From the NCBI GenBank assembly GCA_016195085.1, contig JACQAG010000080.1, positions 1-61,680 on the forward strand: a DNA stretch of 61,680 bases, given 5' to 3'. The stretch's first letter is position 1. Every line of letters begins with the position of its first letter. Made by a program: the position numbers and the translations under genes. This DNA is from Pseudomonadota bacterium. Its GTDB lineage: Bacteria; Pseudomonadota; Alphaproteobacteria; SHVZ01. The notes under the pieces were generated by a model that was not told the DNA's origin, made no database searches, and saw nothing but the letters and a program-made list of their open reading frames with translations. Positions 51,216 to 61,478 of the stretch are shown in pieces.

Positions 51216-52289
51216 ATGGACAGTCCCGTACTCAGCCTTCTCGGCGATGAGTCTGCCAACAGTCTCGCCGCCGCTACATCCGCTTCCACCGGCCAAGTCG
51301 ACGATCAGGACTCGCTCGACGCCTATTCCCGGACGGTGAGCGGCGTGGCTGAGAGCATGGCCGCCGCGGCGATCGGCATCCGCGTGCGCAAGCGGACCAA
51401 GCAAAGCCAGGGTGCGGCCGCCCATGCGCTGGCCGGTGCCGGATCGGGCTTCGTCATCACCCCCGACGGCTACGCCATCACCAACAGCCATGTGGTGCAT
51501 GGCGCCGAAATCATCGAGGCCATGCTGGGCGACGGCAATATCGGCGTAGCCGAGCTCATCGGCGACGACCCGGAAACCGACATCGCCCTCATCCGGCTGG
51601 GCGAGGGCAACCGCCTGACACCCGCCCCTCTGGGATCATCGGGGCCGCTCCGGGTGGGCCAGCTCGTGGTCGCCATCGGCAATCCCTTGGGCCTGCAGGC
51701 GACCGTGACCGCCGGCGTGGTGAGTGCCGTCCGCCGCACTCTCAGGAGCTCGACCGGCGGGCTCATCGAGGACGTGATCCAGACCGACGCGGCGCTCAAC
51801 CCCGGCAATAGCGGCGGCGCCCTGGTCGATTCCCGTGGGCATGTGGTGGGCGTCAACACCGCGATCATCGCCGGCGCGCAAGGCATCTGCTTTGCCGTGC
51901 CGATCGACACGGCGAAGTGGGTTGTCCCGGCGCTGCTGCGCGACGGCAGGGTGGTCCGCGGCCGCATCGGCCTCTCCGGCTCGACCGTGCCGGTGCCGCG
52001 CCGGATCGCGGTCGCCCATGGCCTCGATCTTGCGACCGCGGTCAGAGTGGTCGAGGTGGTGAAGGGTGAGCCGGCCGCCGCCGCCGGCTTGGATGAGGGC
52101 GATCTCGTGATCCGCCTCGACGGCAAGCCGACCGTCACCGTGGACGAGATGCGCCGCATCCTCGCCCGCAACGCCGTCGGCCGCGCGCTCGATCTCGTCT
52201 ATCTCCGCCGCGGCAAGTGGATCGAGACCGTGGTGCACCCCGCGCCGGACCACCCGCCGGCCAAGCCGCGCGAGGCGGTGCCCGCTTAG
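51216..52289 (+). CDS. HtrA/DegP-like trypsin-fold protease with PDZ domain
   Basis: A 357-residue serine protease. The catalytic triad is His92 (TNSHVVHG), Asp122 (PETDIALIRL) and Ser199 (NPGNSGGAL). One PDZ domain follows from about residue 255 (VVKGEPAAAAGLDEGDLVIR). No signal peptide or membrane anchor is visible, and the first 70 residues are low-complexity, so it may be cytoplasmic or exported by another route. HtrA enzymes usually work in the periplasm. GAGGAG upstream supports ATG 51216. It stands alone, followed by an inverted repeat. Confidence 0.88.
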   Translation: MDSPVLSLLGDESANSLAAATSASTGQVDDQDSLDAYSRTVSGVAESMAAAAIGIRVRKRTKQSQGAAAHALAGAGSGFVITPDGYAITNSHVVHGAEIIEAMLGDGNIGVAELIGDDPETDIALIRLGEGNRLTPAPLGSSGPLRVGQLVVAIGNPLGLQATVTAGVVSAVRRTLRSSTGGLIEDVIQTDAALNPGNSGGALVDSRGHVVGVNTAIIAGAQGICFAVPIDTAKWVVPALLRDGRVVRGRIGLSGSTVPVPRRIAVAHGLDLATAVRVVEVVKGEPAAAAGLDEGDLVIRLDGKPTVTVDEMRRILARNAVGRALDLVYLRRGKWIETVVHPAPDHPPAKPREAVPA

Positions 52290-57539: not shown

Positions 57540-57590
57540 TGCCGTGACCGTCGATCATAGCGTCCAAAGAAGAATGTGGGAGCGACAGCC

Positions 57591-59870
57591 TTGTCCAAGA
57601 AAGCCGTGAGCCGCGTCGTGCCGGGCCTCGAGCACGAGGTCGAGATCATCGTCGACCGTTGGGGCATTCCTCATATCTTCGCCCGCTCCACCCATGATGC
57701 CTTCTTCGCCCAGGGTTGGAATGCCGCCAGGGACCGGCTCTGGCAGATCGATCTCTGGCGCCGGCGCGGCCTGGGCGAGCTGGCAGAGGTCTTCGGGCCC
57801 GCTTATGTGGAGAAGGACCGTGCCGCCCGCCTGCTGCTCTATCGCGGCGACATGGACAAGGAACGGGCGAGCTATGGCGGCGATGCCCGTGCCGTCACCA
57901 CCGCCTTCGTCGCCGGCATCAATGCCTATGTGCTCTGGCTCCGCGACAACACCCGGCATTTGCCGATGGAGTTCAAGCGCCTGGGTCATCGCCCGGCCTT
58001 GTGGCGGCCCGAGGATGTCGTCAGCATCCGCAGCCATGGGCGCGTGCGCAACCTCGAGCACGAGGTGCTGCGCACCGGTGTCGCGACGCGCTTCGGCCTC
58101 GAGGTCGACGCCTTGCGCAAGGGCCTCGAGCCGGAGTGGAAGACCAAGGTGCCCGACGGCCTGGAGCTCGCCGAGATTCCGCCCGGCGTGATGGCCACAT
58201 ATCGCCTCGGCACCGAGCCGGCGACGTTCTCCGCCGATCGGCTCGCCGCGTCCGGCGGCGGCGACGGTGACGGCAGCAACAACTGGGCCTTGGCGCCGGG
58301 GCACACCACCACCGGCCGTCCCATCCTGGCGAGCGACCCGCACCGGGTGCACGACATGCCGTCGCTCCGCTACATCTCGCACCTGTCGGCGCCCGGGCTC
58401 GACGTCATCGGCGCCGCCGAGCCGGCGGTGCCCGGCGTCTCCCTCGGCCATAACGGCAGCATCGCCTTCGGTCTCACCATCTTCCCGGTCGACCAGGAAG
58501 ACCTCTATGTCTACGAGCTCGATCCCACCGATCCCTTACGCTACCGCTACGCCGAGGACTGGGAGCGGTTCCGGGTCACGACCGAGCGCCTGGAGGTGCG
58601 TGGGTCTAGGCCGGTCACGGTCGAGCTCCTGTTCAGCCGCCACGGCCCGATCCTCCACGTCGATCGTGCCCGCAACCGCGCCTATGGCTTGAAGTCGGTC
58701 TGGCTGGAGCCGGGGACGGCTCCCTACTACGCCAGCCTCGACTATATCGGCGCCAGGGATTGGCGCCGCTTCGAAGCGGCAGCCGCGCGGTGGGGCAGCC
58801 CGTCGGTCAATCTGGTCTATGCCGACGTCGCCGGCGGCATCGGCTGGATCACCGCCGGCTTCGTGCCGGTCAGGCCGAATTGGGACGGGCTCATGCCGGT
58901 GCCGGGCGACGGACGCTATGAATGGCGTGGCTTCATGCCGGCCCAGCACCACCCGCGCGAGCACAATCCGAAGCGCGGCTGGGTCGGCTCCGCCAACCAG
59001 ATGAATCTCCCCAAGAGCTTCGATCACGCCGCCCACAAGCCGGGCTTCGAATGGTCCGACCGCTCGCGCTTTCAGCGTCTCTCCGAAGGCCTCGAAAGCC
59101 GGCGCCAGCACTCGATCGAGGCGGTGAAGGCGCTGCAGACGGATTTCACCTCGATGCATGGACGCCGCGTGACGGCGCTGCTCGGGGGACTCGCCAGCGA
59201 CGATCCGAAGATCCGGACGGCACTCGACCTGCTGCTTGGCTGGGACCATGGGCTGGCGGCGAGCTCCGCCGCGGCGGCCTTGTTCGAGGTCTGGTTCGCC
59301 AAGCACCTGGCACCAGCCGTCATCAAGCTGGCGGCACCCGCGGGGGCTCTCGAGCATTTCGGCGTGCTCGATCCTTCCGTAGTCGTGAAGCTCCTGGAGC
59401 ATCCGGGAAACCGCTTCGATCGCAGCACCCGCGACCGCGTTCTCATCGAGAGCTTGGCTTCGGCGATCGCCGAGCTCGAGAAGCGCCTCGGCCGCAAGCC
59501 TGAGCAGTGGCAATGGGGCAAGCTGCATCACGGCTTCTTCGAGCACCCGCTTTCCGGCCACTTGGGCGATCCCTCGCTCAATGTCGGTCCCGGCCCGAAG
59601 GGCGGCAACGCTTACACGGTCAACAACAACGGCTACCGGCCCGAGGACTTCCGGGTGATCAGCGGGGTGTCCTGGCGCATGGTAGTCGATGTCGGCAATT
59701 GGGACAATTCCTGGACCATCAACACGCCTGGGCAATCGGGAGACCCGAAGAGCCCGCACTACCGCGACCTGTTCGAGGCCTGGACGCGCGAGGAGTATGT
59801 GCCGCTGCTCTACACTCGGCCCGCGATCGAGAAGGCGGCGGTGCTGCGCATTAACCTCTCGCCCGGGTGA
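57591..59870 (+). CDS. Penicillin-acylase family (Ntn) amidohydrolase
   Basis: A 759-residue precursor of the S45 family, which cleaves itself so that an internal Ser becomes the N-terminal nucleophile. The alpha part has VDRWGIPHIFARSTHDAFFA and QGWNAARDRLWQIDLWRR. The nucleophile is Ser229 in GDGSNNWALAP, followed by GRPILASDPHR and the conserved GHNGSIAFGLT. Near the C-terminus WRMVVDVGNWDNSWTINTPG and GQSGDPKSPHYRDL are family motifs. TTG 57591 has GGGAG eight bases upstream; GTG 57576 is possible. No signal peptide is seen, although many relatives are periplasmic. Likely substrates are N-acyl amides such as acyl-homoserine lactones or beta-lactams. Confidence 0.88.
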   Translation: MSKKAVSRVVPGLEHEVEIIVDRWGIPHIFARSTHDAFFAQGWNAARDRLWQIDLWRRRGLGELAEVFGPAYVEKDRAARLLLYRGDMDKERASYGGDARAVTTAFVAGINAYVLWLRDNTRHLPMEFKRLGHRPALWRPEDVVSIRSHGRVRNLEHEVLRTGVATRFGLEVDALRKGLEPEWKTKVPDGLELAEIPPGVMATYRLGTEPATFSADRLAASGGGDGDGSNNWALAPGHTTTGRPILASDPHRVHDMPSLRYISHLSAPGLDVIGAAEPAVPGVSLGHNGSIAFGLTIFPVDQEDLYVYELDPTDPLRYRYAEDWERFRVTTERLEVRGSRPVTVELLFSRHGPILHVDRARNRAYGLKSVWLEPGTAPYYASLDYIGARDWRRFEAAAARWGSPSVNLVYADVAGGIGWITAGFVPVRPNWDGLMPVPGDGRYEWRGFMPAQHHPREHNPKRGWVGSANQMNLPKSFDHAAHKPGFEWSDRSRFQRLSEGLESRRQHSIEAVKALQTDFTSMHGRRVTALLGGLASDDPKIRTALDLLLGWDHGLAASSAAAALFEVWFAKHLAPAVIKLAAPAGALEHFGVLDPSVVVKLLEHPGNRFDRSTRDRVLIESLASAIAELEKRLGRKPEQWQWGKLHHGFFEHPLSGHLGDPSLNVGPGPKGGNAYTVNNNGYRPEDFRVISGVSWRMVVDVGNWDNSWTINTPGQSGDPKSPHYRDLFEAWTREEYVPLLYTRPAIEKAAVLRINLSPG

Positions 59871-59960
59871 GCGCGGGCGTCCGCCTCTTGGCGCGGGTTG
59901 CCACCGGAGATTGAGGCCCTAGAATGGCTGCCGGAGATCTTTCGGCGGGGAGGGCTGACG

Positions 59961-61478
59961 GTGCTGTTGGCGAGGCTTTTGATCATCGCCGTCGGATTGC
60001 TTGCCTGCGCGGCGGCGGTCAGCAGCGATGCATCCGCGCAAGGCCTGCATCCCACGGTCAAGGAGGCGGTGGACAAGGCTCAAGCCGCAGCCAAGATCGC
60101 TCAGGATGCGCTCAAGCTCGGCTCCAAGGCGTCGGCTGAGGCCGTCACCGCCGCCACGACCGCGCTTTCCCGGGCAAACGATGCGCGCGCGCTGCCGCCA
60201 TCCTCGCTGGTGACGCTCACCTCCAAGGAGGGCAACCGTCTGCAAGGGCAGGCGCGGGAAGGGAAGATCAACGGCCCCTGCATCCTGCAAGCGACGGACG
60301 GCACCCGCTACGAGGGCGAGTGCCGCGACAACGCGATCACCGGCTATGGAATCGAAGTGCTGCCCAGCGGCTTCCGCTATGAAGGCGCCTTCGAGCGCGG
60401 CAAGCGCCACGGCATGGGCCGCAGCACCTATCCCGACGGATCGCGCTACGAGGGCGCCTGGGTCAGCGAAGTGCGCACCGGCTATGGCGCGATCATTTCG
60501 GCCGTGGGCGACCTCTATGTGGGGCAGGTGGCCGGGGGCAAGGCGAACGGGCATGGCGGGCGGAAGCTGCAGAGCGGGCTTAGCTACACCGGAGAATGGC
60601 GCGAGGGACGTGCCGAGGGCTATGGCGTTCTCACGCTGGCCAATGGCGACTCCTATCAGGGTCAGCTCCGCCAGGGCAAATACAGCGGGCCCGGCGTCTA
60701 CGCCTCGCGCGCCGAGGGCAAGGCGGTCCAAGGTCTCTGGGAGAACGGCACGCTGAAGCAGGAATTGGGTCCGGCCATCGCCAGCGCGCCGCCCGGCAGC
60801 TCGTCCTCACCGCAGCCGAAAGCTCCTGCCAAGAAGGCCGCACCCCCGCAGGTCGCGACCGGCACCGGATTCTTCGTGACCAAGGCCGGCCATATCGTCA
60901 CCAATCATCACGTCGCCGGCGCCTGCAGGAGCCTGCAGGTGCATGCGGTCGGCGAGGCGCCGGTGGGTGCGCGTCTGGTGGCGACTAGCCCGCGCGAGGA
61001 TCTGGCCCTGTTGAAGGTGAGCGAACCCGGCGAAGCCGTCTCCGTCATCCGCGCCGGCCCGGCGCTCCGGCCGGGCGATGGCGTGGTCGTCTTCGGCTTT
61101 CCGCTGCCGGGGCTCGTCACCACATCGGGCAATCTCACCACCGGCAATGTCAGCGCGCTCGCCGGTCTCGCCGACAGCACCGGCTTTTTTCAGATTTCGG
61201 CGCCGGTGCAGCCCGGCAATAGCGGCGGGCCGCTTCTCGACATGAGCGGCAATGTCATCGGCGTCATCGTCTCCAAGCTCGATGCGGCGAAGGTGGCGAG
61301 CGTCATCGGCGACATTCCGCAGAACGTGAACTTCGCCATCAAGGCGAGCGTGCTCACGAGCTTCCTCGAAGCCCACGACATTCGCTACGAGACGGCACCC
61401 TCGAGCGCCACCCTGTCGGTGGCCGATGTCGGCGAGCGGGCGCGCTCCTTCACCGTCATGGTCGAATGCTACAAATAG
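59961..61478 (+). CDS. Secreted MORN-repeat/trypsin-like protease fusion
   Basis: A 505-residue exported protein. GTG 59961, with GGGGAGGG six bases upstream, gives a clean signal peptide (LLARLLIIAVGLLACAAAV) cut after ASA-Q. A helical, Ala-rich spacer follows to about 80. About seven MORN-type repeats of roughly 23 residues lie at 94-270 (for example GTRYEGECRDNAITGYGIEV and GSRYEGAWVSEVRTGYGAII). After a Pro/Ser/Lys linker comes a trypsin-fold domain with His317 (TNHHVAG), Asp347 (PREDLALL) and Ser421 (QPGNSGGPLL). No PDZ domain. MORN repeats bind lipids or mediate contacts, so the protease may be held at a membrane. Substrate unknown. Confidence 0.85.
   Translation: MLLARLLIIAVGLLACAAAVSSDASAQGLHPTVKEAVDKAQAAAKIAQDALKLGSKASAEAVTAATTALSRANDARALPPSSLVTLTSKEGNRLQGQAREGKINGPCILQATDGTRYEGECRDNAITGYGIEVLPSGFRYEGAFERGKRHGMGRSTYPDGSRYEGAWVSEVRTGYGAIISAVGDLYVGQVAGGKANGHGGRKLQSGLSYTGEWREGRAEGYGVLTLANGDSYQGQLRQGKYSGPGVYASRAEGKAVQGLWENGTLKQELGPAIASAPPGSSSSPQPKAPAKKAAPPQVATGTGFFVTKAGHIVTNHHVAGACRSLQVHAVGEAPVGARLVATSPREDLALLKVSEPGEAVSVIRAGPALRPGDGVVVFGFPLPGLVTTSGNLTTGNVSALAGLADSTGFFQISAPVQPGNSGGPLLDMSGNVIGVIVSKLDAAKVASVIGDIPQNVNFAIKASVLTSFLEAHDIRYETAPSSATLSVADVGERARSFTVMVECYK

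Follow-up and report, generated by a model that had tools for sequence, protein, structure and literature searches.

An apparently exported MORN-repeat fusion within a group of tailed, PDZ-less HtrA-like proteases

The protease described here resembles the DegS, DegP and HtrA enzymes (S1C; TIGR02037) in its barrel, the order of its triad residues, its TNxHV and PGNSGGP motifs and its export. The nearest known protease in working idea is MarP (Rv3671c), an envelope serine protease in which, according to the accessible portion of its description, a disulfide is made to a Cys near the C-terminus (PMC4992679). Repeat modules joined to trypsin domains are also on record: a survey of prokaryotic serine proteases published in 2008 gives Tryp-(Sel1)6 in Pelodictyon luteolum, written with Sel1 after the protease, and the main text of that survey, as far as available, contains no occurrence of MORN (PMC2605481). 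MORN1 proteins, for their part, form dimers, as stated in the accessible text of PMC7725318. The gene considered here encodes a rare variant, assembled from known parts, within an apparently undescribed group of tailed HtrA-like proteases. Our preferred reading, for which we see even chances, is of an exported HtrA-type endopeptidase of this PDZ-less, tailed group, with a MORN rod that would dock or pair the enzyme, a disulfide that would staple its tail, and a role in the cell envelope.

The window, that is, the whole stretch of DNA analysed (61,680 nucleotides), carries an ORF of 505 amino acids with a GTG start at 59961–61478 on the forward strand, to which the coordinates of all its features refer; the contig ends 202 bases past the stop. 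The GTG at 59961 is preferred over an upstream TTG at 59898, which would add 21 residues, because the purine-rich stretch GGGGAGGG precedes it. From start to end, the chain consists of a signal sequence, two predicted helices, a MORN rod, a linker, an HtrA-like protease and a short tail. Chance or a frame artefact was ruled out, the parts of the gene lying in a single frame with even GC and GC3, and an assembly chimera appears less likely given that the MORN–protease architecture recurs in other genomes. The exported MORN–protease fusion with a full His/Asp/Ser triad that had been proposed from the DNA letters was borne out by Pfam, structural models and alignment, with the signal judged by eye, and the gene coordinates and the estimate of about seven MORN repeats were likewise right.

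The signal sequence (residues 1–26; 59961–60038) was assigned by eye and by pattern scans, and displays to the eye R5, a hydrophobic core and an ASA-Q site; the location of the protein is most likely periplasmic. Residues 6–16, ending in C16, fit a loose lipoprotein pattern and do not fit the strict one. This loose match, together with the presence of a strict lipobox in the MORN relative L134 and a loose one in the MORN relative L109, would favor lipoprotein processing, with cleavage at C16 and anchoring in either the inner or the outer membrane, the MORN rod then serving as a spacer that extends the protease into the periplasm. We consider that arrangement unlikely, as the protein fails the strict pattern, has Leu at position −2 (unusual for a lipobox) and offers a normal ASA-Q site downstream of C16, and as a MORN-only paralogue in the same genome lacks the corresponding Cys. 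Across the 76 members with the cysteine pair discussed below, 5 of which are cut at the locus edge, a strict lipobox stands at the start of four (L049, L058, L126 and L134), and the loose form occurs in L109 and the protein itself.

Behind the signal come two helices, predicted with low confidence, at residues 33–52 and 56–76 (60057–60188), which are common to the MORN-only paralogue and the relative L122. Seven MORN units of 23 residues follow in exact register (residues 91–251; 60231–60713), supported by Pfam (PF02493, 78.4 bits against a cut-off of 22.5), by self-identity and by the predicted model; the self-identity at a lag of 23 residues is 0.296, compared with 0.082 ± 0.021 after shuffling, and was reached in none of 10,000 shuffles. 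The repeat reading and the model add a C-terminal capping half-unit, a partial eighth (60714–60764), after which a linker rich in Pro, Ala, Ser and Lys (residues 270–297; 60768–60851) is evident from the sequence and from the low pLDDT with which the MORN model ends. This model is an antiparallel beta-meander rod that superposes on five solved MORN1 entries with Z of 21.6–22.4 (best for 6t69 and 6t4d, both 22.4), the nearest solved structures being apicomplexan and trypanosome MORN1 proteins. C107 (60279–60281) and C121 (60321–60323) lie on neighboring predicted strands, are absent from the MORN-only paralogue and could, going by the model, possibly form a second disulfide.

The original prediction had also suggested that the MORN repeats anchor the protein to membranes or sense lipid, as the name and the common assumption of lipid binding by MORN repeats would imply. 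In the accessible part of the TbMORN1 study, the protein co-purified with PE and bound PI(4,5)P2 in some assays, but its liposome assays gave no association, the PI(4,5)P2 binding was unconfirmed by liposomes, and the protein dimerises (PMC7725318). Among the relatives, moreover, membrane attachment, where visible, looks due to N-terminal lipidation. Because TbMORN1 showed no liposome association, lipid anchoring is the less favored reading, and we hold a membrane-tethering or lipid-sensing role for the rod to be very unlikely.

The protease barrel (residues 298–475; 60852–61385) was recognized as HtrA-like (S1) by Pfam (Trypsin_2, 90.2 bits against a cut-off of 27.6) and by a predicted model of residues 285–505 with a mean pLDDT of 90.6. 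This model matches DegS with Z of about 21–22 and HtrA1, DegP and DegQ somewhat less well. Alignment identifies the catalytic residues as His317 (60909–60911, in TNHHV), Asp347 (60999–61001, in DLALLK) and Ser421 (61221–61223, in PGNSGGP). In an alignment of 52 rows, comprising the protein and its relatives at E 1e-28 or better (L050, L054:2472 and L086 dropped), these letters are kept in 51, 52 and 50 rows, respectively. Given the intact triad and the HtrA fold match, the enzyme is expected to be active, as far as sequence and model can indicate. Repurposed HtrA-like proteins such as MamO do exist, according to the portion of PMC4794232 that was accessible, and the tailed relative L092 has neither the catalytic His nor the serine motif; a degenerate, MamO-like scaffold is nevertheless highly improbable for the present protein, whose triad and PGNSGGP motif are intact. 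In L092 itself (L092:805-2268, from a genome of the same family), Gln stands in place of the catalytic His and the motif around the serine is altered; this protease is probably inactive, judged from its residues.

Where HtrA enzymes continue into a PDZ domain, the chain ends 30 residues past the barrel. The predicted model shows this C-terminal tail (residues 476–505; 61386–61475) as a helix at 487–497 followed by a strand at 498–504, in blocks with mean pLDDT of 91–97. Solved structures stop short of it: among the 50 structural matches listed, no alignment to an HtrA structure reaches beyond model residue 191 of 221, and none of the 60 PDB sequence matches listed for a profile built from 31 sequences extends past profile position 181 of 215. 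We do not put the tail forward as a new fold. No PDZ domain appeared among the Pfam matches of the protein at E up to 1, or in any of the 52 of 76 cysteine-pair members that were Pfam-scanned (the protein and 51 others), the E limits of these PDZ scans being 1, 0.1, 0.001 or 1e-5, depending on the member set. A PDZ domain is present in L017 and in the window's own HtrA (51216–52289), the N-terminus of which has no obvious signal sequence by eye.

The tail did not figure in the original prediction, and neither did a recurrent pair of cysteines, one in the barrel and one in the tail. C322 (60924–60926) lies five residues past the catalytic His, and C503 (61467–61469) is the third residue from the end; both were located by alignment. 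In the 52-row alignment, 49 rows carry both cysteines and 3 carry neither. A larger table of 109 complete rows contains 76 with both, 29 with neither, 1 with C322 only (L123) and 3 with C503 only (L112, L115 and L116), where a Cys aligned anywhere with residues 499–505 was scored as the tail Cys and where matches starting past query position 30, 1 duplicate and 3 incomplete rows were left out. An early alignment left out L046, L061 and L062, which are without the trimming motif, and the later counts include them. The co-occurrence gives a Fisher p of 6e-22 with kinship ignored; on the tree, only two to three independent contrasts are available (sign test, median p 0.5), so that significance after correction for the tree was not reached because the contrasts are too few. 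The 29 rows with neither cysteine include 22 from a starred clade of ordinary HtrAs, to which L017 and the window's own HtrA belong and 18 of which have Ala after the His helix where C322 stands; the remaining seven are L063, L082, L085, L086, L117, L129 and L137. From this pattern, we infer a C322–C503 disulfide that would staple the tail beside the active site.

Two of the exceptions bear on when such a bond is kept. L063 (without either cysteine) and L123 (without C503) group together with a support of 88, and each of the 32 other rows in the fork that contains them carries the pair; in both L063 and L123, a TerD domain is fused to the tailed protease (L063:3455-4594 and L123:1493-2938), and the chain starts are unlike signal sequences. 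As the TerD fusions look cytoplasmic and have the pair broken, the disulfide can be read as kept where the enzyme is exported. Against this reading, the tailed relatives L082, L085, L129 and L137 look exported and have neither cysteine, so that the fold does not seem to depend on such a bond. L063 comes from the Pseudomonas aeruginosa plasmid Rms139, where its neighbors are annotated as a carboxylate-amine ligase, a phosphoribosyltransferase and a citrate lyase.

The protease and its tail are shared, and the module joined to them varies. Among the 52 Pfam-scanned members of the 76, some of which carry two heads, Sel1 occurs in 24, PG_binding_1 in 12 and MORN in 8, with TPR, PAN and cytochrome c in one each and no head recognized over the cut-off in 14. 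A profile of the seven MORN units, run over 116 protease ORFs, likewise recovered eight with MORN, including the protein itself, and these were confirmed by Pfam (the others being L042, L045, L105, L109, L122, L132 and L134). Some combinations are composite. For example, L045 has Sel1 and MORN on the tailed protease, L122 (L122:1244-3088) is a single chain of signal, helix, MORN, PG_binding_1 and tailed protease, and L127 (L127:2086-3159) places a cytochrome c domain before the tailed protease (Cytochrome_CBB3, 44.2 bits against a cut-off of 27). In L105 (L105:2716-4410), from a contig of a viral collection, the order is reversed, with the protease followed by about ten MORN units counted by eye. 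Many of the head modules are known protein-interaction repeats. Since heads of quite different folds sit on the same protease, protein docking and/or pairing is the most economical role for them. The PG_binding_1, PAN and Sel1 modules would also suit a secreted protease aimed at the cell wall, a host or prey, its heads recognizing surfaces, but the neighboring genes scanned include none that would support this, and we rate it as decidedly improbable.

Among the Alphaproteobacteria sampled, the tailed proteases make up a sizeable group, and in the samples searched this group is mostly alphaproteobacterial. In a sample of the class, 51 of 385 genomes match the protein at E 1e-25 or better. A single ORF combines MORN with the tailed protease in at least 6 of the 385 (G000, G109, G118, G198, G284 and G341), a count that leaves out the fragments G339 and G228 for head type. 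The phylum sample, which overlaps that of the class, gave matches in 39 of 398 genomes, and among the loci fetched from it the fusion was seen only in the window's own genome. No orthologue was seen in six other members of the order, three of which have tailed proteases with Sel1 heads that fall in a separate starred clade. On plasmids, 128 records match, 116 of them from Pseudomonas, none covering 80% of the protein, and the annotations seen among them are generic (serine protease, trypsin-like peptidase, S1C or TPR-containing serine protease). A scan of genome contigs gave five loci, with the protease found in the matching frame in none, and a search of viral contigs with the protein's own MORN stretch found no relative. 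A separate analysis of viral-contig loci used 14 of the 21. In the literature searched, which was mostly non-subscription, no description of bacterial MORN joined to a trypsin, peptidase or serine protease was seen. The fusion is therefore rare but not unique: it had been called unusual, and the low class count, the lack of any plasmid record over 80% of its length and the absence of a description from the papers searched agree with that word.

The same genome offers a clue to the origin of the gene. A MORN-only paralogue (L002:1504-2343; 279 residues) has the layout of signal, helix and MORN, contains no protease and is 34% identical to residues 13–271 of the protein; as a further MORN protein whose start resembles a signal sequence, it has to be weighed against the view that MORN repeats are mainly cytoplasmic. 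The first part of L122 has the same layout (27% identity over 300 columns). Based on the paralogue and L122, the gene appears to have arisen by the joining of an exported, stand-alone MORN protein to a tailed protease. The best tree requires five changes for the eight MORN rows, two of them forced by starred branches, and a single MORN clade is not rejected by the AU test (p 0.304; p 0.333 with seven rows). The best tree and the reversed domain order of L105 hint at several independent MORN fusions, which we do not claim. Neighboring genes that were scanned are metabolic or HtrA, with two lacking a Pfam match, and give no functional hint. On the same strand, 90 bases upstream, lies a gene of the penicillin amidase family (57576–59870; 680.6 bits), with no obvious signal sequence by eye.

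Under our preferred reading, the tail would fold back as an extra strand, stapled by the C322–C503 disulfide adjoining the catalytic His, and the oxidizing envelope could stabilize the mature fold or gate activity through this bond. The MORN rod would stand in for the PDZ domains of DegP and DegS by docking the enzyme to a client or other protein partner and/or by pairing two protease units, and Sel1, TPR or PG-binding heads may play the same part in the relatives. The biological role would be in protein processing or quality control in the envelope. A broader proposal, which we offer tentatively and put well short of an even chance, is that the relatives form a widespread, unrecognized set of envelope proteases whose disulfide-stapled C-terminal tail replaces regulation by PDZ and whose recognition head can be exchanged like a cassette. 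The MORN version would then be paired by its rod and redox-switched at C322–C503, and the cytoplasmic TerD fusions would serve as natural controls in which the switch was lost. If true, these ideas would point to PDZ-free targeting and gating of HtrA-type proteases in the bacterial envelope, to a testable disulfide adjoining an active site, and to a concrete role to test for bacterial MORN repeats.

Relative to DegS, DegP and HtrA, the protein is without PDZ, has a tail with a conserved Cys and carries a repeat head, and it scores 93 bits with the HtrA model TIGR02037 (NCBIfam), below the cut-off of 416.2. The RT-Protease XI profile of PADLOC matches it only at profile positions 348–487 of 506, and the reverse transcriptase expected before the protease, a criterion taken from the family name, was not found by Pfam, MORN standing there instead. 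The MORN1 proteins of Trypanosoma, Toxoplasma and Plasmodium share its MORN fold, with 31–32% identity and Z of about 22, but are eukaryotic, and their solved constructs have no protease. MarP is described, in the text accessible, as having four N-terminal transmembrane helices and its first Cys (214) in another sequence context (PMC4992679). The present protein has instead a single hydrophobic stretch, by eye, followed by helix and MORN, and scores 77.9 bits with the MarP model NF033740, below the cut-off of 250. With a Cys at His+5, a Cys near the end of the tail and no PDZ, it belongs with the tailed group.
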